64,000 nucleotides of DNA from an uncultured Bacilli bacterium (lineage in GTDB: Bacteria > Bacillota_I > Bacilli_A > RF39 > UBA660): contig CANQZC010000002.1 of the NCBI GenBank assembly GCA_947628235.1, positions 62,001-126,000 of the forward strand, given 5' to 3'. The position numbers and the translations under genes are program-made. The notes beneath the pieces were generated by a model. The model was not told the DNA's origin and did not search any database. It saw nothing but the letters and a program-made list of their open reading frames with translations. This document shows, piece after piece, positions 3,267-63,997 of this stretch; within the stretch, counting starts at the first letter, position 1; every line of letters begins with the position of its first letter.

Positions 3267-4967
3267 TTATTTTATACTCAAAATTTCTATTTGTTCTTTA
3301 AAATCTCGTAGCAATTCTTTGACAAAAATCGATTCTTTAGAAAAAGGAGTAAGAAGATAGACTTCTCCTTTGGTTCTAGTAAGCGCTACATAGAAAAGGC
3401 GGCGTTCTTCTTCATAGGCAAAGGTTTCTTGTTCTAATTCTAAAAAACGGAAAAGAGGACTTTCTTCAATTTGATTTGGAAATCCTAAAAAAGCATTCTC
3501 TAGATGAAGAAGAATGACGGTTTCTTCTTCTAATCCTTTCGCTTGATGAACAGTTAGGTATCTCCAAATTAATTCTTGGTAAGGATATTCTTCGTTGATA
3601 GAACCATTTTGAATCTCCTGTAGATCTTTTTGATTTCTACCTAGAACTAAAACTCGTTTTTTCCCTTTTGTAAGAAGGTAGTCTAAAAGATGAAAAAAAG
3701 TTTCCTTTTCGTTTTGATAGTAGATGATTTTAATCGGTTTGAAAAGATGCTTTTGTGAGAACAATTGCTTCTGTATTTGTTTTTTATTTTTCATCATAAA
3801 AGAACCGGCGATTTGAATTAATTCTTGACTATTCCGATAAGTATTGGGAAGAAATAAGACTTCAGAATTCGGAAAATAGGAAGAAAAGTGAAGAAAGGTA
3901 GAAAGATTGCATCCGGTAAAGCGATAGATGGATTGAAAATCATCTCCTACTACCATTAGTTTAGCCGAACTTCTTTTTAAAATACTTTGAAGAAATTGAA
4001 CTCGAAGAAGGGAACTATCTTGAAATTCATCGACAATAAGATATTGATATGGTAGCATTCTTTCTTCTTTTTCTAAGGTTTGAGTTGCTTTTCGTAACAT
4101 ATCATCAAAGTCGATTTCCCAATTTGCTTCTAGTTCTTGTAAGTAGAGTGTGTAGATAGCAAGAATATGGAGAAAAAAGAGTTTTTCTTCCTTCCCATAA
4201 GCTTTTTGATAGTACGAAAAAAGAAGATTATCTTCTCTTTTATTCGCCCGAAAAAGATGAATAAAAGTGGTTATATTTTTCTGAAAACGAAGAAACTTTG
4301 GTTCTTTGAAAAGAGAAAAATATTCTTCTTTCTTTTTCTGAAAGAAAAGAAGGGTAAGATGAAAAAGAGAAGGAATTTGTAAAAGTAATGCATGATAAAA
4401 TTCATCGATGAGATATTCTAAACTATCCCTTCTAGCTACTTGATAAGAACTATCTTTTAAAATTCGTAATGCCATTTGATGAAAGGTAAGAACCTCTACC
4501 GAATAACCTTCTTTTTCTATTTTTCCTTTTAAACTTTTAGAAGATGCTTGCGTAAAGGAAAGACAAAGAATTCTTTTTTCGAGGATCCCTTTTTCTTCGA
4601 TTAAGTATTTTACTTTTCCAACAATCGTTAAGCTTTTTCCCGAACCTGCTCCAGCAATGACAAGAAGAGCATCTTCTTCATTTAATACACATTCTTGTTG
4701 ATAACTATCTAGGGAATAACCTTGAATCGACTGAAAGAAGTGAGCATACTTTTCCTTTTCTTTTTGATAGAAGATACGGTTGTTCTCTTCTCGTTTTTGG
4801 GATGCTTTTTGATAGGAAAAAAAGAAATGACGAAAAGAGGGAAAAAGAAGTAGGTATTTTCTTTTTTGAATTTTTTGATAGGTGGGAAGATACTCTTCTA
4901 ATAGACTCGTTAGTTCCTTCTTAGTAAGATAGTAATCTCCTTTCCATAGATTGATAAATTTTTGCAT
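3267..4967 (-). CDS. UvrD/Rep-type (helicase IV-like) superfamily 1 DNA helicase
   Basis: This 566-aa ATP-dependent DNA helicase has Walker A GAGSGKS at residues 106-112, motif II VDEFQDSS near 310, the motif V-region phrase TVHQAKGLE and motif VI VALTRTKGEVYLL near the C-terminus. The N-terminal 90 residues before motif I resemble HelD/helicase IV more than UvrD, which puts the Q-motif almost at the start. It is shorter than PcrA/UvrD (about 720 aa), with small 1B and 2B insertions. Likely role in DNA repair or recombination. The ATG at 4967 lacks a clear Shine-Dalgarno. Confidence 0.85.
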   Translation of the reverse strand: MQKFINLWKGDYYLTKKELTSLLEEYLPTYQKIQKRKYLLLFPSFRHFFFSYQKASQKREENNRIFYQKEKEKYAHFFQSIQGYSLDSYQQECVLNEEDALLVIAGAGSGKSLTIVGKVKYLIEEKGILEKRILCLSFTQASSKSLKGKIEKEGYSVEVLTFHQMALRILKDSSYQVARRDSLEYLIDEFYHALLLQIPSLFHLTLLFFQKKKEEYFSLFKEPKFLRFQKNITTFIHLFRANKREDNLLFSYYQKAYGKEEKLFFLHILAIYTLYLQELEANWEIDFDDMLRKATQTLEKEERMLPYQYLIVDEFQDSSLLRVQFLQSILKRSSAKLMVVGDDFQSIYRFTGCNLSTFLHFSSYFPNSEVLFLPNTYRNSQELIQIAGSFMMKNKKQIQKQLFSQKHLFKPIKIIYYQNEKETFFHLLDYLLTKGKKRVLVLGRNQKDLQEIQNGSINEEYPYQELIWRYLTVHQAKGLEEETVILLHLENAFLGFPNQIEESPLFRFLELEQETFAYEEERRLFYVALTRTKGEVYLLTPFSKESIFVKELLRDFKEQIEILSIK

Positions 4968-5031
4968 GTTTTCAGAATAGCAAGAAGTTAGGAAAAAGGC
5001 AAACTTTTAAAATTCTATTTTTGCACAAAAG

Positions 5032-5056
5032 AAAAGGCAGTTTCCTGTCTTTTTCT
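5032..5056 (-). terminator. Rho-independent terminator of the Cro-like gene
   Basis: The stem AAAAGGCAG/CTGTCTTTT with loop TTTC, read on the minus strand, is followed by TTTTCTTTT. It lies about 45 nt after the stop of the 5098-5346 gene. Confidence 0.6.
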
Positions 5057-5097
5057 ACTCATTTTTTAAAATATGGTTTCTAAGAAGAAGTAAAAAA

Positions 5098-5346
5098 TTA
5101 ATTTTCATCATTGGGAACATATTCAACAATATGATCTAGTCTGCAATCAAAATAGTCACAAAGTCTAGCAAATACCGTAACATCTATTTTGACTAATTCT
5201 CCTCGTAAAATTCTTTTTAATACTTTAAAATCGGTATTGGTATCACGCATTACTTTATTGATACTAACTTTACTGGTATTCATTAAATCATCTAATTTAA
5301 AAAGATAATAACCATTTTCTACATCTATTTTTACCATCGTAAGCAC
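5098..5346 (-). CDS. Cro/C1-type helix-turn-helix regulator
   Basis: This 82-aa protein is essentially a single HTH domain. The segment SINKVMRDTNTDFKVLKRIL forms the helices, followed by the typical tail VFARLCDYFDCRLDHIVEYV. This is the HTH_26/YozG-like type of small Firmicutes regulator. It is divergent from the P-type ATPase gene, with about 90 nt between them, so it could act on that intergenic region, but no operator is evident. The translation start could be the second ATG three codons in. Confidence 0.8.
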   Translation of the reverse strand: MLTMVKIDVENGYYLFKLDDLMNTSKVSINKVMRDTNTDFKVLKRILRGELVKIDVTVFARLCDYFDCRLDHIVEYVPNDEN

Positions 5347-5436
5347 CTGTAGCTTTCTAATTTAATGATAGCAATTTTAAGGTTCTTTCAACTATTGGCT
5401 GATGAACCATAACTATTCCCTTTTTCTAGAAAAACA

Positions 5437-5445
5437 TGGTATACT
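5437..5445 (+). promoter_or_regulatory. Extended -10 promoter of the P-type ATPase
   Basis: TGGTATACT lies over the ATG at 5436. AGAGGG and the ATG at 5463 follow, which decides the start. Confidence 0.7.
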
Positions 5446-5462
5446 TATATAAGAGGGATAGC

Positions 5463-7790
5463 ATGATAGAGAGAATAGAACCAAATATCCATATGGGATT
5501 AAATAGAGAACAGGTAGAAGAAAGAGTTAAGCATCATCAAGTTCATTCGAATACGATGGTAACAACGAAAAGTATTAAAGAAATTATTCTTTCTAATGTC
5601 TGTACACTTTTCAACCTTGTAAACCTAATCTTAGGTTGTTTTATTGTGTTTACTGGTTCTTATAAAAATCTCCTTTTTTTAGGAGTTGCTTTCTGTAATA
5701 CTATCATTAGTATGTACCAAGAAATTCATGCAAAACATATTATCGATAAATTAGCGATTATTTCTTCTTCGAAAGTAACTTTATTGCGTAACGGAAAAGA
5801 AGAAAAACATCCTGTAGAAGATATCGTGCTAGATGATATCATTCTTTATGCTGTTGGCAATCAAGTTGTTGTCGATTCTCTTATTCGCGAAGGAACGGTA
5901 GAAGTAGATGAATCTTTCATTACCGGAGAAAGCGATAGCGTCATGAAAGAAAAAGGGGAAATGTTACTTTCTGGAAGTTTTATCATCGGAGGAAGTTGTT
6001 CTGCCCAAGTTGAACATATCGGAGAAGAAAACTATGCGAATAAAATCTCTAAGGAAGCAAAATATATCAAACAGATCAATTCGGAAATTATGAAGACGAT
6101 GAAAAAAATTATTAAAGGGATTTCTATCGTTATTTTTCCTTTAGGTTTTCTTTTATTTATGCAGCAGTTACATTTGGATGGAAATACGCTTCAAGAAAGT
6201 ATTATCAATACTGTTGCTGCTTTAATTGGAATGATTCCGGAAGGATTAGTTCTTTTAACAAGTACGGTATTAGCCGTTAGTTCTGTTCGGTTAGCACGAA
6301 AAAAAGTTCTCGTTCAAGAACTTTACTGTATTGAGACTTTAGCGCGTGTAGATACCATCTGCTTAGATAAAACAGGAACGATTACGGAAGGGAAAATGGA
6401 AGTTATTGATATGATTGAACTTGTAGAAGATGCTCCTTTATTCGATATCTTTACTGCTTTAGCGTATTATAATCAAGATAAAAATGCGACTTCGATGGCG
6501 ATACGAGAAAAGTTTCGTGGTAAGTCTAAGTATGAATTAGTAGATGCGATTCCTTTTTCCTCCAAACGAAAATATTCAGGGATGACTTTCCGGAATGGAG
6601 ATACCTATTTGTTAGGCGCTCCAGAACTTTTAACGAAAGAAGAAAGCGTATTAGAAAAAGTAAAAGAATATTCCGAATATCGTGTTGTTCTTTTAGTAAA
6701 GACACATCATAATTGTCAAGAACCAGTTCAAGATACGATTCCGTTAGCGATTCTTTTAATTCGTGATAAAATTCGTAAGAGTGCAGCTAAGACTTTAGCG
6801 TATTTTAAATCTCAAGGGGTCGATATCAAGATCATTTCTGGAGATAGTGTAGGAACCATTTCTAAAATTGCTAAGAGAGTAGGGTTAGAAGAGGTAAAAG
6901 GAATCGATATGTCTACTGTTACTACCGAGATGAATCTAAAAGAGATAGTCGAAGAAAATACTATCTTTGGAAGAGTGACACCGAGTGGAAAAAAAGATTT
7001 GCTTTTAGCTTTAAAAGCGAATGGACATACGGTCGCTATGACAGGAGATGGAGTCAATGATGTTTTAGCGTTAAAAGAAGCAGATTGTAGTTTAGCGATG
7101 GCAAGTGGTAGTGATGCAGCAAGAAGTGTTAGTCAATTAGTACTACTAGATTCTAATTTTGATTCTATTCCTAAAATTGTCAATGAGGGAAGAAGAACGA
7201 TTAACAACCTAGAAAGATCAGCTACTTTATTTCTTACGAAGACCCTTTATTCTACTTTACTAGCAATCCTCTTCATCTTTATTGAGAGAAGTTATCCATT
7301 CCAACCAATTCAACTTAGTTTAAATAGTATTGTAACGATTGGTATTCCTTCTTTTATTTTAGCGTTAGAACCAAATCATCAACGCGTACAAGGAATCTTT
7401 ATTATCAATGTGATTCGCAAATCCATACCGGCAGCTCTTACGATTATTGTCAATATTATTAGTGTTATGGTCTTTAGTTCTTTATTTTTTTTCTCTGAAG
7501 AACACACTTCAACCATGGCCATGATATTACTTGCTTTTTCTGGTTTCTTATTATTATTTAAAATTTGCTACCCATTTAATTATCTTCGTGGTATACTATT
7601 TGGGACATTGGTGGGAATTTTCCTTGGAGGAGCGATTGGATTAAATAAATTATTTGAGTTTGTTTTATTAACACCATCGATGTTCCTCTTTGTCGGTATT
7701 CTATGTTTACTAGATATCCCACTTTTCAAAACATTGACAAATTTATGTGAGAAAAAGATATTTAAATATCAGGAAAGGATTGTAAAATAA
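5463..7790 (+). CDS. CtpE-like P-type cation ATPase
   Basis: This 775-aa integral membrane ATPase has the actuator motif TGES at residues 154-157, phosphorylated Asp302 in DKTGT, and TGDGVND at 527-533. The membrane motif PEGLVLLTS followed by LVQELYCIETLARVD is characteristic of the CtpE subgroup, linked in mycobacteria to calcium uptake; substrate assignment here is by family only. An upstream ATG at 5436 overlaps the -10 box, so the start is taken at 5463, preceded by AGAGGG. The ZIP transporter begins 1 nt after the stop, giving a metal-transport operon. Confidence 0.88.
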   Translation: MIERIEPNIHMGLNREQVEERVKHHQVHSNTMVTTKSIKEIILSNVCTLFNLVNLILGCFIVFTGSYKNLLFLGVAFCNTIISMYQEIHAKHIIDKLAIISSSKVTLLRNGKEEKHPVEDIVLDDIILYAVGNQVVVDSLIREGTVEVDESFITGESDSVMKEKGEMLLSGSFIIGGSCSAQVEHIGEENYANKISKEAKYIKQINSEIMKTMKKIIKGISIVIFPLGFLLFMQQLHLDGNTLQESIINTVAALIGMIPEGLVLLTSTVLAVSSVRLARKKVLVQELYCIETLARVDTICLDKTGTITEGKMEVIDMIELVEDAPLFDIFTALAYYNQDKNATSMAIREKFRGKSKYELVDAIPFSSKRKYSGMTFRNGDTYLLGAPELLTKEESVLEKVKEYSEYRVVLLVKTHHNCQEPVQDTIPLAILLIRDKIRKSAAKTLAYFKSQGVDIKIISGDSVGTISKIAKRVGLEEVKGIDMSTVTTEMNLKEIVEENTIFGRVTPSGKKDLLLALKANGHTVAMTGDGVNDVLALKEADCSLAMASGSDAARSVSQLVLLDSNFDSIPKIVNEGRRTINNLERSATLFLTKTLYSTLLAILFIFIERSYPFQPIQLSLNSIVTIGIPSFILALEPNHQRVQGIFIINVIRKSIPAALTIIVNIISVMVFSSLFFFSEEHTSTMAMILLAFSGFLLLFKICYPFNYLRGILFGTLVGIFLGGAIGLNKLFEFVLLTPSMFLFVGILCLLDIPLFKTLTNLCEKKIFKYQERIVK

Positions 7791-11154: not shown

Positions 11155-12738
11155 ATGGCGTTATTTCTCGCCTCAATCCTTCCATATGCGATGTTTTCTT
11201 TGTTTAAACTAAAGAAAGCGATTCATATGTTACAGCAAAATTATTATGATGAATCTAATCGTTACTTTCTTTGGATTTTAAAAAATCCACGAAAAGTTTG
11301 GTTAGAATTAGATATTACCTTTCCTTTATTAGGACTTTTATTCCTTTTAAAAGGAAATCTTTTATGTATTACTTTTGGTGTTTTTTATACATTATTAGCA
11401 GCCGAATATCATGTTCGGAGAAATCAAGAACAAGTTAAGAAACCACTCGTGGTAACGGCTCGTGTAAAACGATTGATGATAACGATATTCCTTCTTTATG
11501 TTATCATGATACTACCAATGATTCTTACTTTTGAAGAGGCAAGTATTCCTTTTTACTATCTTTATTTAGGACTGGTTTCTTACCTTAGTTATTTCTTAGT
11601 GATGTTAGCGAATTTCTGTAATCAACCAATTGAAAAATTCGTGTTCCTCTACTATCGTAAGAAGGCCATGAAAAAGATGGATATGATGAAGATTCCTGTC
11701 ATTGGAATTACTGGTAGTTATGGAAAAACAAGTAGTAAGAATATTATTTATGATATATTAAATGTAAAATACAATGCTTTTGTAAGTCCGAAAAACTTTA
11801 ATACACCTTATGGATTAATTCTTTCTATCAATAACTATTTAGATAAATTTGAAGATTATTTTATTGCCGAAATGGGAGCGTTTAAAGTAGGAGAAATCAA
11901 AAAGAATTGTGAGTTAATGAAACCTACTTATGGTGTTTTAACGGTGATAGGGGAAGCTCATTTAGAGAGTTTCGGTAGTCGTGAAAATATTCAAAAAGGA
12001 AAGTTTGAACTTGTAGAATCTCTTCCTAAAGATGGATTTGCTATCTTAAATGGAGATGATCCTTATCAAAGAAATTATAAGATTCGAAATCATTGCGGTA
12101 TTTACTGGATAGGAATTCATAACCATGAAGTAGATGCGTATGCGACGAATATTCGAACAACTTGGAAAGGAAGTTCCTTTGATATTAAGTTTCAAGGAGA
12201 CGATACTTTTTATCCATTTACGACAAAGTTATTAGGATATCACAATATCTATAATATTTTAGCGGGTGTTTTATTAGGTAGAAAACTAGGAATGAGTATT
12301 GCGGATTTAGAGCGTGGTGTTTCTAGAATTATGCCGATAGAACATCGATTAGAACTTAAAAAAGTGGGAAATCTAAATATTATAGATGATGCGTATAATT
12401 CTAATCCAGTAGGAGCTTCTATGGCGTTAGATGTCCTAGGAATGATGCCAGGAAAAAAGATTATAGTAACACCGGGAATGATTGAACTAGGAGAAAAGCA
12501 GTATGAAGAGAATAAACTTTTTGGACAGAAAATTGCATCTAAAGCAGATTATGTCATTTTAATTGGAAAAGAACAGACAAAACCTATTCTAGATGGATTA
12601 GAAGAAGAACATTTTAATCCAGATAAAATCCTTGTTTTAAACGATGTAAAAAGTGCTTTTCCAGTCATTCAAAGAATGCAAGAAGAAGAGACTTATGTCT
12701 TATTAGAAAACGATTTACCTGATTTATTTAACGAGTAA
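11155..12738 (+). CDS. murF: MurF-type Mur ligase with N-terminal membrane domain
   Basis: The C-terminal 345 residues form an ATP-dependent Mur ligase. GITGSYGKT at residues 184-192 is the P-loop, EMGAFKVGEI the following active-site segment, and IDDAYNSNP the MurF signature. MurF adds D-Ala-D-Ala to the UDP-MurNAc tripeptide. The first 180 residues contain about four to five transmembrane helices absent from classical MurF (about 450 aa), so this enzyme is predicted to be membrane-tethered. The ddl gene, which makes its substrate, starts 13 nt downstream. Identification as MurF is supported by both motif and neighbour. Confidence 0.85.
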   Translation: MALFLASILPYAMFSLFKLKKAIHMLQQNYYDESNRYFLWILKNPRKVWLELDITFPLLGLLFLLKGNLLCITFGVFYTLLAAEYHVRRNQEQVKKPLVVTARVKRLMITIFLLYVIMILPMILTFEEASIPFYYLYLGLVSYLSYFLVMLANFCNQPIEKFVFLYYRKKAMKKMDMMKIPVIGITGSYGKTSSKNIIYDILNVKYNAFVSPKNFNTPYGLILSINNYLDKFEDYFIAEMGAFKVGEIKKNCELMKPTYGVLTVIGEAHLESFGSRENIQKGKFELVESLPKDGFAILNGDDPYQRNYKIRNHCGIYWIGIHNHEVDAYATNIRTTWKGSSFDIKFQGDDTFYPFTTKLLGYHNIYNILAGVLLGRKLGMSIADLERGVSRIMPIEHRLELKKVGNLNIIDDAYNSNPVGASMALDVLGMMPGKKIIVTPGMIELGEKQYEENKLFGQKIASKADYVILIGKEQTKPILDGLEEEHFNPDKILVLNDVKSAFPVIQRMQEEETYVLLENDLPDLFNE

Positions 12739-12751
12739 AAGGAGTGATAAT

Positions 12752-13942
12752 ATGAAGATTAAAGTAGGTGTCATTTTTGGTGGAGAGACAGTAGAACATG
12801 AGGTTAGTATCATTTCTGCGTTACAAGCAATTGAAAATATGAATCGTGATAAATATGAAATTGTTCCTATCTATATAGCAAAAGATAGAACTTGGTATAC
12901 AGGACATATGCTTTTTGATATTGAAGTCTATAAAGATTTTAAAGATTTAAAGAAGTATGCAACTCCTTGTACATTAGTAACAAGGGGAGGAAAATTTTAT
13001 CTAGAACGCATGAAAGGATTCTTTCGTAAGACGATTACTGATTTAGATATCGCTTTTCCTATCGTACATGGAAATAATGTGGAGGATGGAACACTTCATG
13101 GATATTTAAAAACAGTAGGAATTCCTTTCGTTGGAAGTGGCGTTTTAGGATCTGCTTTAGGTCAAGATAAAGTGGTTATGAAACAAGTTTTTTCTTCTAT
13201 GAATTTACCAATTGTGGATTATGTATGGTTCTATGATACCGAATATACCGAGTCTTTTAACGATATTGAAAAAAGAATTGAAAGAATGGGATTTCCTGTC
13301 ATTGTAAAACCAGCTACATTAGGAAGTAGTGTCGGAATCTCTTTTGTAAAGGAAAGAAAAGACCTAGAAAAAGCCATTGAAGAGGCGATTCAGTACGATC
13401 AAAAAATTATCGTTGAAAAAGCCGTTTCTAACTTAGTAGAAGTAAACTGTAGTGTCTTTGGAAACTATTCTCATCAAGAGACAAGTGAAATTGAGGAAGT
13501 TTTATCTACGGAAGAGTTCTTAACTTATCAAGATAAATATATTGGAGGAAGTAAAGGAAAAGCTAGTAAAGGAATGGCTAGTGCGAGTAGAATTATTCCT
13601 GCTAGAATCGATGAAGCAACTGAAAAAGAAGTTCGGGAACTTGCTTGTGAAGTTTTCCGTGCTTTAAACTTAAGTGGGGTATGTCGGATAGATTTCTTAA
13701 TTGATAAAGAAACGAAGAAGGTTTATATCAATGAACCAAATACGATTCCTGGAAGTTTATCTTTCTATTTATGGGAACCAGCAGGAAAGAAATATCGTGA
13801 ACTTTTAGATGATTTACTTACTCTTGCTATTAAGGATTACAAAGAAAAATCAAAGAAAATTTACTCATTTGATACCAATATTTTAAGTGGCTATATAATG
13901 GGTAGTAAGGGATTAAAAGGAGCAAAAGGAAAGTTAAAATAA
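12752..13942 (+). CDS. ddl: D-alanine--D-alanine ligase
   Basis: This 396-aa ATP-grasp enzyme joins two D-Ala molecules for peptidoglycan. The N-terminal VIFGGETVEHEVSIISA matches the Ddl signature, KPATLGSSVGI is the ATP-binding loop, and the metal-binding end is IDFLIDKETKKVYINEPNT followed by IPGSLSFYLW. It is somewhat longer than typical Ddl (about 310-370 aa). The MurF-like ligase using the dipeptide lies just upstream. AGGAG precedes the ATG. Nothing indicates a D-Lac or D-Ser (Van) variant for certain. Confidence 0.92.
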   Translation: MKIKVGVIFGGETVEHEVSIISALQAIENMNRDKYEIVPIYIAKDRTWYTGHMLFDIEVYKDFKDLKKYATPCTLVTRGGKFYLERMKGFFRKTITDLDIAFPIVHGNNVEDGTLHGYLKTVGIPFVGSGVLGSALGQDKVVMKQVFSSMNLPIVDYVWFYDTEYTESFNDIEKRIERMGFPVIVKPATLGSSVGISFVKERKDLEKAIEEAIQYDQKIIVEKAVSNLVEVNCSVFGNYSHQETSEIEEVLSTEEFLTYQDKYIGGSKGKASKGMASASRIIPARIDEATEKEVRELACEVFRALNLSGVCRIDFLIDKETKKVYINEPNTIPGSLSFYLWEPAGKKYRELLDDLLTLAIKDYKEKSKKIYSFDTNILSGYIMGSKGLKGAKGKLK

Positions 13943-52555: not shown

Positions 52556-52579
52556 AAGAAAAAGCCAAAATTGGCTTTT
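52556..52579 (-). terminator. Terminator of the SecA2-like gene
   Basis: AAAAGCC-AATTTT-GGCTTTT read on the minus strand, followed by TTCTTTTTTC; it overlaps the stop codon. Confidence 0.75.
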
Positions 52580-55500
52580 ATTTTGCTTTTGGACTATCTC
52601 CATCTGTCCATTCTTGGACTCTCCTTCTTTCTTCTTCCATATCGGCTGCTAGTTTTTGATCAAAGTCTCGACTAACGGTTGTAAGACCGGAAGCAAGAAC
52701 TCTCACTGGAATTAATTCCGTTCTTGGATTAGCGATTTTTTTTCGGTATTCCGGATGAAGAATTTCTCTTACCATCATCGCTCTTTGTGATTCAATGGCA
52801 TGATGGAAAGCAATCGCTACTTGAGATGGAATATCAATTTTTACATTATATTTAGAGACAGCATTGATTCTCTTTTGAGCCTCTAGTGCTTCCATATAAC
52901 CTTCAAATTCACTCCATGCTCTATTAATATGAATATCGACAATCTTTTTGGCTTCCTCTTCTAATTGATCTTGTCCTTTTTCTTCTACTAAACGATAGAA
53001 TCTTTCAATACTTTTATCGGTTAGAAGAGAAGTTAAATCACCAATTGTCCCACAAGCAAGAATTTCACTTTCGGTCATTTTAACTCCTAAGAATTCATCA
53101 CATAAAGAGATAAACTCTTCGACATCTAAACTCTTTCGTGAAAGTTTTCTAGAACTTTCTACAAATTCTTGGAAGTAAGGAGCAGAGTCAATGACAATGG
53201 CTTGGGCCGTTTTTTGAACCATTGCTTCTACCGATTCGGTATAATTTTTAGATCGTTTAATAGAATCTTTTTCTTCTCTAAATTCATTTCGATAGTGGGC
53301 AATGGCACGAGCTGTTTCTTGTTCGTATTTAATACTATCAAAAGTAGCAGATTCAAATCGAGTTTGAGCCTCATAGATACAATCACTAAGAGGAGTACGA
53401 TGCATATCTGGTGTTTCTTCGATTGGTTTTCCTCCTTGTACCGCTAATAACTTTTGAGTAAATGCTTTTGGAATTCCTAATTCTTCTAGATCGCTAGGAT
53501 CACTAAAGAAAATTACTTCTCCTACATTTCCTTGTCTACCACATCGACCTTTGACTTGATCATCTACTCTAGAGAATTGGAAATGTCCAGATCCAATAAT
53601 TTTTAAACCATTGGCATCTAAGATTTGTTTTTCCATCTCTGCTTTCATTTTCATTAAATTTCTATGATAACTTAATACTTCTGATTCTAATAATCCTTTA
53701 TTGACATCAAAAATTTCATTTAATTTTGCTCGCATAGCGGCTTCATTTTGAGGAGTAATTTTTCCTTTGGCACGAAGGGCTTGCATAGCTTCTTCTACCC
53801 GGCTTATCTTTAGTTGTTGCATCAATTCTTCTGGGCTAGGAACTTCTCCTCCTAATTTGATATCGGTACCACGACCAGCCATCTCTGTACAAATTGTAAT
53901 CTGTCCTGGCATACCAGCCTTGGCAACAATTTTAGATTCTTGTTCAATATCTTGAATTTCAGCATTTAATACGGGAATAGAAATTAAAATTCCTTCCTGT
54001 TGAAATCTACGACTTAAGAATTGATAAAGCATTTCACTTTTATTTTTACTTGTGGTAGAAATTAAAACAGGTTGTTTCTTTAAGTAAGAACGATAAGCTT
54101 CTTGGAAAATCGCCTCGAATTTACTATCCGTATCGGGATAGAGTCTTTCTCCATGATCTGTTACGGCTTTTGGAATATTTCTTGGTACTTCATAAGTCTC
54201 TAACCCATAAAGATTTTTAAAAGCATCAATCGCTGCCGTACCTGTCATACCACCGACTTTTTCATATCTTTCAAAGAAAGAAGCGGTAGGAATCGAAGCA
54301 AGCGTATTAGAAAGGGGAGTTTCTTTAATTCGAATTTGTTGTCTTAAAGATTGTTCTTTTCTTTCAACTGCTTGATGTAATCCATTCGAATAAACTCTAC
54401 CTTTGGCTGTTCTACCATCTTTAATTACTTGAACACTAAATTCATTTCCTTCTTGAACTAAATCATAGTCTTTTCCTCGTTCTAAGAGGAACCACGCTCT
54501 AATCGCATTATCAATCTCTTGATGAGTGTCAATCATCTCATGCATTTGATAATCTTCATAAAGTCTTTTAAATTCTATAAAATCATCACTCTCTACTAAA
54601 TCTAAAACCGTTCTAGGTGAAAGTAAAAGACGATGATCTTTCGTATATTCAAAATCTCTTCCTTCTTTAAAACCTTCGACGATTTCTTTTTGATATTTTT
54701 GAATTAAGGCTTGTAGTTGAGAAGCACGGTATTGCATAAAGATGATAACATCTCCTAAAGGCGTAATTTCATACCGTTTCGTTTGAGCATCAAAGATAAG
54801 GGCTTTAGTTCTTTGAAGTTCATCTTCATAAGGCGCTTCTTTTAAGAACTTATCATAGTCTTGTTTATTAGAATAGAAATGAAGAATACTTGCTCCTGGA
54901 CGAATACTTGCCATATGCTTGTCTTCTAAGAAAATACGAAATATCGCACGATTTGCTTGATCCATTCTTCTTTTCGCTTCTAGTTGATCTTCATCGGTAA
55001 TCGCTAAAAGTTCATCTTCTTGTCTTCCGGAGATATTAAAAGGAGTTCTAGCATCTTCAAATAAAACAGCATCGACTTCATCAATAATAGCAAAATTTGG
55101 TTTTCCTGGCCGTTGAACCATAAAGTCAGGATTCGTTTCTAGGTCATCATAAAGATAATCGAAAGCAATCGCCGATGAAGAACCATAGATAATATCTGCT
55201 AAATAAGCCTTTTTTCTTTCTAATGCTTTCTTTTTCTTTAGATAGGCAAAAGCTTCTCTTCTAGCATTTAAAAGAATTGTTGGATTATTAAAGAAGATAC
55301 TTCTTCGTTTATCAATCAAGGCTTTATTTTTAATACCGGTAACACTTTTTTGAAATTGAGCATTTAAGATTTGGGTTGCTAATTCCGTTACTTCTTCTTT
55401 AGATACATTTCTACTTTCATTGATAAGACTACAAGTAAGACCCATTAAATTATAGAGTTCACTCATCTCTCTTTGGTCACGAGCGGCTAAATAACCATTC

Positions 55501-55952
55501 GGAGTAATTACTTGTACTCCTTTTCCAAGAAGAGCATTTAAGTAAGCGGGAAGGGTAGCTGTTAAAGTTTTTCCTTCTCCAGTTGCCATCTGTGATACAT
55601 AACCATCATTTAATAGAATTCCTCCTATTAATTGAACATCATAATGAGGTTTATTCCATAAAAATTTACTAGCGGCTTTGACCGCTGCATAAGCTTCTGG
55701 TAAAACTCTTTTTAGGGCATCTTCTTCGGAATATCCCCGTGCGATATAAGTTTGAATTAGTTTTCTTAATTCTTCTGTTTTTGCTTGAAAAAAGGCAGCA
55801 GCCCGTTTTCTATCTTCTTCCTTTAAAGGACTTAGATTTCCTAATTCTCTTAAATTTCTTTCATAAATTGTATTAATTTCTAAGACAGTAGAATCTATGT
55901 CTCTTTTCATTCTTCCTGTCAATTGTAAAGGTTCTTTTTTCTTCCTGCTCAT
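52578..55952 (-). CDS. secA2: SecA2-like preprotein translocase ATPase
   Basis: The 1124-aa protein is clearly SecA. It has QLIGGILLNDGYVSQMATGEGKT (Walker A), IIDEVDAVLFEDARTP, MTGTAAID, ITICTEMAGRGTDIKLG and GRCGRQGNVG. It is about 250-300 residues longer than housekeeping SecA. An insertion of about 60-70 residues sits between CSLINES and ADIIYGSSSAIAFDYL, and the C-terminal scaffold is long and charged. The zinc-binding CxCx8CH tail of SecA1 is missing. It resembles an accessory SecA2 for selected surface proteins. Proximity to the collagen-like gene and glycosyltransferase suggests a cargo, but it has its own promoter. Confidence 0.85.
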   Translation of the reverse strand: MSRKKKEPLQLTGRMKRDIDSTVLEINTIYERNLRELGNLSPLKEEDRKRAAAFFQAKTEELRKLIQTYIARGYSEEDALKRVLPEAYAAVKAASKFLWNKPHYDVQLIGGILLNDGYVSQMATGEGKTLTATLPAYLNALLGKGVQVITPNGYLAARDQREMSELYNLMGLTCSLINESRNVSKEEVTELATQILNAQFQKSVTGIKNKALIDKRRSIFFNNPTILLNARREAFAYLKKKKALERKKAYLADIIYGSSSAIAFDYLYDDLETNPDFMVQRPGKPNFAIIDEVDAVLFEDARTPFNISGRQEDELLAITDEDQLEAKRRMDQANRAIFRIFLEDKHMASIRPGASILHFYSNKQDYDKFLKEAPYEDELQRTKALIFDAQTKRYEITPLGDVIIFMQYRASQLQALIQKYQKEIVEGFKEGRDFEYTKDHRLLLSPRTVLDLVESDDFIEFKRLYEDYQMHEMIDTHQEIDNAIRAWFLLERGKDYDLVQEGNEFSVQVIKDGRTAKGRVYSNGLHQAVERKEQSLRQQIRIKETPLSNTLASIPTASFFERYEKVGGMTGTAAIDAFKNLYGLETYEVPRNIPKAVTDHGERLYPDTDSKFEAIFQEAYRSYLKKQPVLISTTSKNKSEMLYQFLSRRFQQEGILISIPVLNAEIQDIEQESKIVAKAGMPGQITICTEMAGRGTDIKLGGEVPSPEELMQQLKISRVEEAMQALRAKGKITPQNEAAMRAKLNEIFDVNKGLLESEVLSYHRNLMKMKAEMEKQILDANGLKIIGSGHFQFSRVDDQVKGRCGRQGNVGEVIFFSDPSDLEELGIPKAFTQKLLAVQGGKPIEETPDMHRTPLSDCIYEAQTRFESATFDSIKYEQETARAIAHYRNEFREEKDSIKRSKNYTESVEAMVQKTAQAIVIDSAPYFQEFVESSRKLSRKSLDVEEFISLCDEFLGVKMTESEILACGTIGDLTSLLTDKSIERFYRLVEEKGQDQLEEEAKKIVDIHINRAWSEFEGYMEALEAQKRINAVSKYNVKIDIPSQVAIAFHHAIESQRAMMVREILHPEYRKKIANPRTELIPVRVLASGLTTVSRDFDQKLAADMEEERRRVQEWTDGDSPKAK

Positions 55953-60016: not shown

Positions 60017-62320
60017 ATGGCAGATAAGAAAAAGAAAAAGAAAAAAGAAACAAATCAAGAAAAAGCAACCAATTTATCTGAATTAAAAGGATTCGGATTA
60101 TTATTAATTGCCATTATTGGATGTTGTCCTTTCGGAATTGTAGCGGATATTATTAAAGGGTTTGCCGCCTTCTTAGTAGGAACTTGGTGGGCTCTTTTAC
60201 TTGTGTTTGTAGGTATTTGTGGTATTTTTATGATTATGAAAAGGGAACGACCAGACTTTTTAAATATTAAGTTTTTAGGACTTTATATTATGATTGTTTG
60301 TGTTTTAGTACTTTCTCATACCGCTTATTTAAATGAATTAACAAAACAAGAGATTGTCGATGTAAATCATTTTCGTTTTATGGATGATACGATTACGGTT
60401 GTAAAGACAACGGTAGATAGTATTATAGGATTTATTCGTAGTAATGAAAATACGCTTTTGATGTCAATGGCAAATCTAGGTGGAGGTTTAATTGGCGCTA
60501 TCTTCTCTAGTATTTTTGTTGCTCTTTTAACACTCAATGGAGCGATTGTTGTCTCTATTGCCCTTATTGTCTGCGGATTTATGATGTTTACTGGTTTCTC
60601 TATTTATGATTGGGTTGTAAAAGCCAAAGAAAGAATGAATAAAGTAGCAAGCACTAGACACCATAAGAAAGAGGATGAGGAAGACGATGAAGAAGACGAA
60701 GATGAGGAGGATGAGGAAGAGGATGAAGATGTTGTAGATCATCGAAAAGTCATTCCAAGAGAAGAACTTCATCAAACTCATGTAGAGACTGTCGTCAATG
60801 AAGAAACAGGAGAAGTTACAGAAGTAGAAGTAATAGAAGAAAATCGAAACTGGGAATATCCTCCATTAAATTTACTTTCTAAGACAGAGAAAAATAATAA
60901 TAAAGAGAATCAAGATGCGATTAAGAAAAATATTCCAACTTTAGAGCAAGTATTACGCGATTTTGGAATTGAAGGAAAAGTAGTTCGGGCGAAAGTAGGA
61001 CCTGCCGTAACACAATATGAATTAGAGATTAGAGCAGGAACAAGAGTTAGTAAAATATTAGGATTAAACCGTGAAATAGCGCTTTCTTTAGCAGCCAAAG
61101 ATGTTCGTATTCAAGCTCCTATTCCAGGAAAGAATACGGTCGGAATTGAACTTCCTAATCCAACCATTTCTATGGTCGGAGTAAGAGAAGTATTAAAAGC
61201 AGCCAATGAAGCCGATAAATCTTTAAATAAGAAATTATTAGCGGTTTTAGGAAAAGATATTGAAGGGGAATGTCGTTTCTTAGAGATTAATAAAATGCCT
61301 CACTTATTAGTAGCAGGTTCTACTGGTAGTGGTAAATCTGTATGTATCAATAGTATTTTAGCGTCTATTTTAATGCGTACTAAACCAGATGAAGTAAAAC
61401 TAGTATTAGTAGACCCTAAGAAAGTAGAATTATCCGTTTATAATGGAGTACCTCATTTACTTACTCCGGTAGTTACTGATCCAAAAAAAGCAAATGTCGT
61501 TTTACAAAAAATTGTTCAAGAAATGGAAAATCGTTATGATACATTTGAACATAGTGGTACGAAAAATATTGAAAGTTATAATGAATACTTAAGAAAAGAA
61601 AATGAATCTAAACCAGATGGTGAAAAAGTAAAACTAATGCCATATATCGTTGTTATCATTGATGAGTTAGCAGATTTGATGTTAGTAGCTGCCAAAGAAG
61701 TAGAAGATTCTATCATGAGAATTACGCAAATGGCTCGTGCAGCAGGAATCCATTTAATTGTTGCTACGCAAAGACCATCTACAGATGTCATTACGGGAGT
61801 CGTAAAAGCAAATATTCCATCTCGTATCTCTTTTGCAGTATCATCAGGAATTGACTCTAGAACAATTTTGGATATGATAGGTGCAGAAAAATTACTTGGA
61901 AAAGGAGATATGCTTTTCTTACCACAAGGAATTAATACTCCAATTCGTATTCAAGGAACTTTTATCTCTGAAGAAGAAACAAAAGCAATTGTAGATTTCG
62001 TATGTAAACAACAAAAAGCTAATTATGATGCTAGATTAGAACAGACCATGGAAGAAGAACATGCGATTACTGGGGTAGAAAGTAAATCAGATGCTTTAGA
62101 AGAACCTCTTTATGATGAAATTGTAGACTTTGTCGTAGAACAAGGAAAAGCAAGTACTTCTTTAATACAAAGAAGATTCCGATTAGGATATAATCGTGCT
62201 GCTCGTTGTATCGATTTACTAGAAGAAAGAGGAATTGTTGGACCTCAAAATGGATCTAAACCAAGAGAAGTTCTTGTAAAATATGGAGATGGAACTTCTA
62301 GTGATGGAGAAGAAGAATGA
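60017..62320 (+). CDS. ftsK: FtsK/SpoIIIE DNA translocase
   Basis: The 767-aa protein has a four-helix N-terminal membrane domain (about 25-200), a long Asp/Glu linker (about 215-245), and a translocase motor with Walker [12 protein letters not shown] and Walker [12 protein letters not shown], followed by the RecA-like end DMLFLPQG. The final 65 residues are the gamma winged helix ([24 protein letters not shown]). It moves chromosomal DNA at the septum; in a sporulating organism it may also serve as SpoIIIE. The next gene repeats the gamma domain. Confidence 0.94.
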
Positions 62321-62649
62321 AAAGAGATTTTAAAAAGATAGGAAAGTGTATACTTTCTTTATCTGCTATTTTTGCAATCCTTTATGTACTTTCTTCTAAA
62401 AGAAGGAAGAAAAGAGAAAAATATAAACTTCCAAGAAAAACAGGATTAGAGGGAATAGAAGAATCCCTTTATGATGAATTAGTAGACTTTGTCGTAAGAA
62501 GAAAAGAAGTAAGTGTTTCTTTAATACAAAGAAAATTTCACTTAGGATATAATCGTACTCTTCATTGTCTTGACCTTTTAGAGAGAAATGGTATTGTTGG
62601 ACCAGAAAAAGGTTATCATGTAAGAAAAGTACTAATTAATTTCAATTAA
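62317..62649 (+). CDS. Stand-alone membrane-anchored FtsK gamma-domain-like protein
   Basis: This 110-aa protein has one membrane helix (residues about 11-25: [15 protein letters not shown]), a basic linker, and a winged helix (about 48-106) very similar to the FtsK gamma domain just encoded: [24 protein letters not shown] versus the same pattern in FtsK, and [20 protein letters not shown] versus [20 protein letters not shown]. It overlaps ftsK by 4 nt (ATGA). It looks like a duplication of the 3' end of ftsK that gained its own anchor. Possible role: binding KOPS/SRS-like DNA at the membrane or modulating FtsK. Confidence 0.8.
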
Positions 62650-62653
62650 AAAG

Positions 62654-62690
62654 AAAAGGAATATGAAAAAAATCATATTCCTTTTTTTTA
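62654..62690 (+). terminator. Terminator after the FtsK gamma-like gene
   Basis: AAAAGGAATATGA, A-rich loop, TCATATTCCTTTTTTT; it ends at the left inverted repeat. Confidence 0.9.
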
Positions 62691-62717
62691 TCGTATAACT
62701 TATAATTATGCGATATT
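62691..62717 (+). repeat. Left 27-bp inverted repeat of a candidate invertible segment
   Basis: The repeat is identical to the reverse complement of 63751-63777. Internally TCGTATAA and TTATGCGA (7 of 8 matching as inverted arms) flank the 7-bp CTTATAA, the form of a tyrosine recombinase crossover site. Confidence 0.85.
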
Positions 62718-62822
62718 TCTTAATACCTAAAATATACCATAATTTGGTAAATATTGGAATATTTTTCCTAAATTATTCCCAATAAATTTATTTTATGAAA
62801 ATATAAGAAATGGAGGTGTTTT
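62718..62822. other. AT-rich leader of the tyrosine recombinase gene
   Basis: No ORF. It contains an inverted repeat ATTGGAATA...TATTCCCAAT (62753-62783 region), possibly an operator, and GGAGGTG before the recombinase ATG. Confidence 0.4.
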
Positions 62823-63752
62823 ATGAGAGTAAAAAAGTCGATGACTTATAATGAGATTTTAAAACTTTGGTTAACTAGTAAAACGGATATAAAAATACAA
62901 TCTAAATTCAACTATGAAAGCTTGATTCTAAGATATATAAAAGATTCTATTGGAATCTTACCTATTCATAAAATTCGAAAAGAAGATATCCAAATTTTTA
63001 TAGATTCTTTGCAAAATAAATTAACTATATCTACCCAGAAAAAATTGATTTATATTATTAAAGCAAGTTTATCTTATGCTTACCATAATCATTATTGTAA
63101 TTATTTAGATTTATTGGATATGAAACTGAAAACCTCAAAGAAAACGATTTTTGTTTTATCTAGAGAAGAACAAAATACTTTAGAATCTATCTTAAAAGAA
63201 AAAATAAATATTCGGAAAATTTGTATCTTACTTTGTTTATATACAGGACTTAGATTGGGAGAAGTTTGTGGATTAAAATGGGAAGATATCAATTTTAGTA
63301 GTAAATCTCTTGTTATTAGAAGAACTATTATTAGAGTTAAGAATTCGGATTACAATAGTCCTCAAAAGACAATTTTAATGGAAAGTACTCCTAAAAGTGA
63401 AACTTCTAAAAGAATCATTCCCATTCCTAACTTTATTATCGAATTATTAGGTAGATATAAACAAAAAGAAAATTATTTTCTTCTATCGAATAGTGAGAAA
63501 TTATATGATCCAAGATATTTAGAATCGTTTTATGCAAGGATATTACAAAAATGCCATATTAAAAATCATAAGTTTCATACTTTAAGACATACTTTTGCAA
63601 CTCGTTCAATTGAATCTAAAATGGATGTGAAAACATTGAGTGAACTTTTAGGACATTCTTCTATTGAAATAACATTAAAACTATATGTTCATCCTACCGA
63701 TGAAATGAAAAGAACTTCTATTGAAAATTTAGTTGAATTTATGGCTATTTAA
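62823..63752 (+). CDS. Tyrosine recombinase enclosed by inverted repeats
   Basis: The 309-aa protein has an N-terminal SAM-like core-binding domain (about 5-95) and a catalytic domain with Arg144 in TGLRLGEVCGLKW, the HxLRH box HTLRHTFATR, LLGHSS, and nucleophile Tyr288 in LKLYVHP. It is full-length and of phage-integrase/Tn916-type form. Its stop TAA lies at the edge of the right 27-bp repeat, so the gene fills the segment between the repeats. GGAGG precedes the ATG. Confidence 0.92.
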   Translation: MRVKKSMTYNEILKLWLTSKTDIKIQSKFNYESLILRYIKDSIGILPIHKIRKEDIQIFIDSLQNKLTISTQKKLIYIIKASLSYAYHNHYCNYLDLLDMKLKTSKKTIFVLSREEQNTLESILKEKINIRKICILLCLYTGLRLGEVCGLKWEDINFSSKSLVIRRTIIRVKNSDYNSPQKTILMESTPKSETSKRIIPIPNFIIELLGRYKQKENYFLLSNSEKLYDPRYLESFYARILQKCHIKNHKFHTLRHTFATRSIESKMDVKTLSELLGHSSIEITLKLYVHPTDEMKRTSIENLVEFMAI

Positions 63753-63777
63753 TATCGCATAATTATAAGTTATACGA
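63751..63777 (-). repeat. Right 27-bp inverted repeat of a candidate invertible segment
   Basis: Perfect reverse complement of 62691-62717. Confidence 0.85.
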
Positions 63778-63802
63778 CAATTTCATAGGAAGGAGTGAGA
63801 AA

Positions 63803-63997
63803 ATGAAATATATGAGTACAAAAGAGGCAGCGGAAAAATGGGGAGTTACTCAAGCAACTGTCTCAAAATGGTGTAGAGAAGAGAAAATTATTTTTACTGC
63901 TATGCCTGAAAAAGTTGGTGGTCAGTGGAGAATACCAGTAGGTGCTAAATATCCAACAATATTAGAAAAGAAACAAAATAAAAAAGTAAAAATATAA
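63803..63997 (+). CDS. Excisionase-like HTH protein
   Basis: The 64-aa protein has a MerR/excisionase-type HTH: YMSTKEAAEKWGVTQATVSK, then WCREEKIIFTAMPEKVGGQWRIP, the pattern of Xis or helix_turn_helix_17 proteins. It lies just outside the right inverted repeat. AAGGAGTG precedes the ATG. It could direct the recombinase (directionality factor), or be the first gene of a further accessory region beyond the window. Its promoter would lie within or across the repeat. Confidence 0.75.
   Translation: MKYMSTKEAAEKWGVTQATVSKWCREEKIIFTAMPEKVGGQWRIPVGAKYPTILEKKQNKKVKI

Follow-up and report, generated by a model that had tools for sequence, protein, structure and literature searches.

A predicted promoter switch in an uncultured Bacilli bacterium encloses the gene of its own tyrosine recombinase

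We analysed a 64-kb stretch of DNA from an uncultured Bacilli bacterium (the window, meaning all 64,000 nucleotides). One locus in it is, very probably on the sequence evidence, a self-contained phase-variation switch in which a tyrosine recombinase would flip its own gene together with an outward promoter, with the window holding the OFF orientation. Inversion of the segment by the enzyme it encodes, as the original prediction had proposed, is well supported by sequence comparison with relatives, which provided spacer identity within site pairs, both orientations, three flank-swapped pairs of loci and a pile-up of contig ends at the sites. Site identity, spacer covariation, the occurrence of both orientations in nature and the positions of the terminator, ribosome-binding-site and promoter-like motifs can be read directly from the DNA. 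The features of the window locus are as follows.

62650-62689, strand not applicable: intrinsic terminator hairpin, stem AAGGAATATGA/TCATATTCCTT, directly outside the left site
62691-63777, strand not applicable: whole invertible segment (putative inverton), 1087 bp counting both sites
62691-62717, + strand: left inverted repeat (IRL), putative crossover site, matching the right repeat perfectly, with arms and spacer as in 26 homologous loci
62731-62759, - strand: predicted outward promoter-like element (-35 TTCCAA, 17-nt spacer, extended -10 TATATT)
62823-63752, + strand: tyrosine recombinase gene, 309 aa (PF00589, E 2.7e-25; N-terminal PF14659)
63751-63777, - strand: right inverted repeat (IRR), overlapping the recombinase stop codon
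63803-63997, + strand: first cargo gene, 64-aa helix-turn-helix (HTH) protein (PF12728, E 1.5e-9)

In the mechanism that we infer, the recombinase of the window would bind the two inverted sites bounding its own gene and catalyse strand exchange within their common 7-bp spacer, so that the 1.09-kb segment, carrying the gene and an active outward promoter, would flip. In the assembled orientation the promoter would point left into the terminator, leaving the cargo operon silent or low; once flipped, it would drive transcription across the right site to the ribosome-binding site of the operon, turning the operon ON. Since the recombinase stays intact either way round, the switch should be reversible, and the strain would be switching at present.

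The site pair is exact. IRL reads TCGTATAA-CTTATAA-TTATGCGA, followed by TATT, and is identical to IRR at 27/27 positions in inverted orientation (97% complementary when lengthened to 30 nt), with an intact gene between them; the predicted perfect 27-bp repeats around a recombinase gene, and their division into 8-bp arms and a 7-bp spacer, were thus both borne out. The two 8-nt arms, TCGTATAA and TTATGCGA, share 7/8 positions across the 7-nt spacer. Searched with up to 3 mismatches, the 25-nt core occurs at two places only in the window, namely IRL and IRR, where shuffled sequences are expected to yield none, and the whole 1.6-Mb assembly holds no third place. Action in trans on site copies elsewhere in the genome was considered and rejected on this same search.

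The gene between the repeats had been taken for a tyrosine recombinase, and the protein bears this out: alongside PF00589, the catalytic R...K...HxxR...H...Y signature is present as R144, K191, H252, R255, H278 and Y288, all invariant in a 29-member family alignment, and the fold agrees. The enzyme consists of a SAM-like core-binding domain (PF14659), at which it begins, and the catalytic domain, without an N-terminal arm-binding domain. Its AlphaFold model has a pLDDT of 83, and the nearest solved structures are the Tn1549 integrase (6emy/6emz) and XerA, with 6emy matching at E 2.4e-15 by sequence and E 2.3e-15 by fold. The domain search found no Resolvase domain (serine recombinase) in the protein, placing it outside the Hin/Gin serine class. 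A prophage origin was also considered and rejected, as no relative turned up in viral contigs.

Seven rabbit-gut Bacilli MAGs carry recombinases 59-87% identical to that of the window, and searches widened by genus, family, order and class extended the family to about 40. The same arrangement, which the original prediction had suggested looking for in relatives, recurs: most of these recombinases are bounded by an inverted repeat pair, and segments across 29 homologous loci measure 1058-1235 bp. Across 26-29 homologous loci, inverted repeats bound a segment adjoining an operon that it would regulate. Among more distant relatives (31-40% identity, other families of the class), 10/25 show correspondingly placed repeats that are at least 16 nt long; of 200 flank pairs made by shuffling one locus, 3.5% reached 15 nt and none 18 nt. 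The arrangement is not universal, because six related recombinases (L040, L042, L043, L046, L063 and L064) showed no detectable site pair. Four recombinases of about 40% identity (L024, L029, L055 and L071) are likewise enclosed by inverted repeats (21-29 nt), and three of them (L024, L029 and L055) bear an additional N-terminal arm-binding-like domain; the arrangement thus extends beyond the short recombinase form.

A model of the site over these loci comprises an outer arm (approximately TCGTAkAA), a 7-nt spacer and an inner arm (approximately TTmTryGA). Scoring on the arms alone, with the locus under test left out, located both sites in 26 loci. The left spacer equalled the right spacer in all 26, although 20 distinct spacers occurred between loci; 182/182 spacer letters matched, against a maximum of 126/182 in 20,000 permutations. 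Strand exchange across a spacer demands identity, so spacers identical within a locus are as expected and would otherwise be hard to explain. Four loci (L012, at 1265-1367, L066, L038 and L021) have two direct-orientation sites on one side, with terminator or promoter-like sequence between them, a doubling that would permit nested inversions of differing lengths.

The two outer flanks of the segment differ, one usually carrying a hairpin and T run and the other a ribosome-binding site and gene, and orientation could be assigned by an automated ORF/terminator search (in L034, by homology of the cargo leader). In 17 loci, including that of the window, the cargo flank adjoins the 3' end of the recombinase gene, and in 10 it adjoins the 5' end; both orientations are therefore present between relatives. 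The recombinase tree requires at least 9 orientation changes, and the flipped label clusters no more than shuffled labels do. In the L032/L033 pair the 1089-bp segments are 92% identical and colinear, yet both outer flanks are homologous and swapped: the right outer flank of one matches the left outer flank of the other in reverse (78% over 99 bp, E 8e-18), and the remaining flank is likewise swapped (79%, E 3e-11). In L007 and L027 the outer flanks have likewise changed places while the segment stays colinear (130 bp, E 6e-17, and 40 bp), and a third swap, between L050 and L051, involves 529 bp of cargo (E 1e-41). Metagenome misassembly can make flips, but not repeatedly the same flip with conserved outer flanks. 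Contig ends also crowd at the sites: of the 16 lying up to 1340 nt from a site, 8 are no more than 200 nt away (p 0.001), a pattern to be expected if the assembler was faced with two versions of the junction. Both ends of contig L061 bear the same cargo flank, differing slightly in the outer arm, for which a strain mixture is another possible source.

The module itself is mobile. In six congeners, ftsK is followed by SPOR and radC genes within about 200 bp (FtsK being 94% identical in one of them, G009), a spacing that makes the module of the window an insertion of about 5.4 kb. A close copy in another genome (G007, locus L008) has the same lipoproteins (92% DNA identity) and adjoins a Mob_Pre relaxase; the relaxase and a serine recombinase (by eye), at 4532-5791 and 12468-12926, flank the switch and cargo there, and this copy probably sits in an integrative mobilizable element. 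The L011 copy adjoins a large serine recombinase.

The hairpin outside the left site folds at -15.7 kcal/mol on the - strand and -18.5 on the + strand (z about -5.5 and -6.0) and should halt transcripts leaving the segment leftward; most loci have a terminator-like hairpin and T run just outside one site, opposite the cargo side. The predicted outward element lies upstream of the recombinase start, in the interval bounded by the 5'-side site, and its -10 in the window ends 17 nt inside the left site. The best outward score belongs, in 22/29 loci, to an element that stops 11-26 nt within the site on the recombinase 5' side, and best scores average z +1.2 outward and -0.1, which is background, in the sense direction; several loci have a poor -35, and single-locus z-scores are modest. 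The TATAAT-like letters that the original prediction saw in each repeat are present, but they fall in the spacer region and the conserved promoter-like element lies 17 nt further inside. The repeats are unlikely to act as the promoter. The original prediction also held that a flip may alter transcription towards either the FtsK side or the gene at 63803. The FtsK side is terminator-capped, which leaves the HTH/lipoprotein operon from 63803 onward as the side that would be regulated.

As assembled, the predicted promoter aims at the terminator, and inversion would turn it towards the ribosome-binding site at 63778-63802; from its sequence, then, the window orientation is more likely OFF than ON. 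The same inversion could be read the other way, with the recombinase's own promoter reading through IRR into the cargo in the window and the flipped form being OFF at the terminator. In the window, no terminator separates the recombinase stop codon from the ribosome-binding site of the cargo, the window orientation is the commoner one (17 vs 10), and the segment of L012 has promoter-like sequence at the end facing the cargo. This assignment was demoted because an outward promoter-like element was found; that element is conserved in position, whereas sense promoter scores do not rise above background, and we regard an ON window as unlikely. A strain in which a formerly active inverton is now locked is slightly less likely still. 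It would fit the unbroken 183-kb contig C2, which crosses the window locus in a single orientation, and the two nearest relatives (L007 and L008, 87% identity), which are oriented like the window, the opposite orientation being known from other species. Against it, the recombinase open reading frame and catalytic residues are intact and the 27-bp repeats are perfect, though decay would be expected there first.

Both of these alternatives accept that the segment inverts or once did. It is very improbable that the repeats are instead the ends of a small recombinase-carrying transposable element and the two orientations independent insertions, even though the module is mobile, is missing between ftsK and SPOR/radC in the six congeners and neighbours a Mob_Pre relaxase in L008. 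Loci of opposite orientation share homologous outer flanks on both sides (the terminator side and the cargo leader), which independent insertions would not yield. The conserved outer arm and the terminator straddle the ends of such an element or fall beyond them, left and right spacers agree strictly at every locus, and the unit inserted in the window includes the cargo and so exceeds the segment bounded by the repeats.

The cargo begins directly after IRR with the ribosome-binding site of the HTH gene. Downstream, the window genome encodes the 64-aa HTH protein (28.9 bits against TIGR01764 'excise', cut-off 28.8), 139-aa and 333-aa lipoproteins, a 76-aa membrane protein and a 594-aa zinc-ribbon/TPR membrane protein, the lipoprotein and zinc-ribbon assignments being judged by eye from the sequence. 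Cargo in relatives includes an Ig-like/Listeria-Bacteroides-repeat surface protein, secreted proteins of 192-199 aa and PF02397 sugar transferases (E 1e-61 to 1e-69). Lipoproteins, secreted or surface proteins and sugar transferases are typical targets of phase variation. In L062, L065, L066 and L038 the first cargo gene is a PF02397 sugar transferase, which suggests phase-variable capsule or exopolysaccharide operons. The idea of the cargo as an anti-phage defence system was dropped after PADLOC gave no match.

Among known systems, the arrangement resembles Hin/fljBA of Salmonella, where hixL and hixR bound an invertible segment of about 1 kb with the invertase gene and an outward promoter for the adjacent operon (PMC9368917); PMC5903667 names Hin to illustrate an invertase located within the segment that it flips. 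Here the recombinase gene likewise lies inside the segment, and an outward promoter is predicted. Hin is a serine recombinase under a Fis-bound enhancer (PMC3798978), whereas the window enzyme is a tyrosine recombinase predicted to act on sites with 8-nt arms and a 7-nt spacer. The window switch would work like Hin, but outside the Hin family.

The RecV switches of Clostridioides difficile (cwpV/Cdi1 and flgB/Cdi4) are tyrosine-recombinase inversions at short inverted repeats (21 bp for flgB) upstream of surface-structure operons (PMC5386303). There, one gene serves several switches with short segments (154 bp for flgB), whereas the window enzyme lies inside its own segment, with a single site pair in the genome. 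In the cod locus of Streptococcus pneumoniae, the gene of the tyrosine recombinase PsrA lies among the inverted repeats that it recombines (PMC4948785, PMC7096588); those repeats are within other genes, and PsrA recombines hsdS coding sequences, changing methylation specificity, and flips no promoter. The window switch has enzyme class and type of target in common with RecV and PsrA; unlike these, the window enzyme would flip a promoter along with its own gene. The Tn1549/Tn916-family integrases, although closest among solved structures by sequence and fold, are characterized by an N-terminal arm-binding domain and direct-repeat attachment sites, whereas the 309-aa core family has no such domain and its sites are inverted. 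The fim recombinase genes lie outside the 314-bp fim segment. FimB/FimE of type 1 fimbriae are tyrosine recombinases that flip the promoter segment of a surface operon (PMC9993118); the NCBIfam models for tyrosine-type DNA invertases of this fim type score the window recombinase far under cut-off (23.2 bits vs 221, and 20.3 vs 222).

A search of the open-access literature yielded no clear precedent for a promoter inverton that contains the tyrosine recombinase acting on it, and the novelty of this architecture is provisional. The published tyrosine-recombinase promoter switches that we found keep the enzyme outside the segment, whereas the window locus would be a portable one-gene ON/OFF switch. 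The switch is present in several genera of a gut family that has received little study, and its position before lipoprotein, surface and capsule-type sugar transferase genes predicts phase-variable surface traits in these uncultured bacteria. We lean, by a small degree, towards a broader view in which widespread, autonomous and transferable modules of uncultured gut Bacilli, each made up of a recombinase, a diversifying site pair and an outward promoter, stand before unrelated surface, lipoprotein or capsule operons, with co-diversification of the spacers preventing cross-recombination. If so, the often-private spacers of each locus would stop copies in one cell from recombining together. The 20 spacers and their cognate recombinases are candidate orthogonal recombinase/site pairs.

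Two other genes of the window stand apart from the switch. At 62317-62649, overlapping the ftsK stop codon, is a stand-alone 110-aa FtsK gamma-domain protein (PF09397, E 1.6e-19), of which L007 has a diverged version (5519-5776); it is missing after ftsK in the six congeners with no switch at that place and from switch loci other than the window and L007. FtsK gamma activates XerD, and a link between this protein and the recombinase is conceivable. A 1124-aa protein encoded at 52578-55952 on the - strand looks by eye like a SecA-type ATPase.
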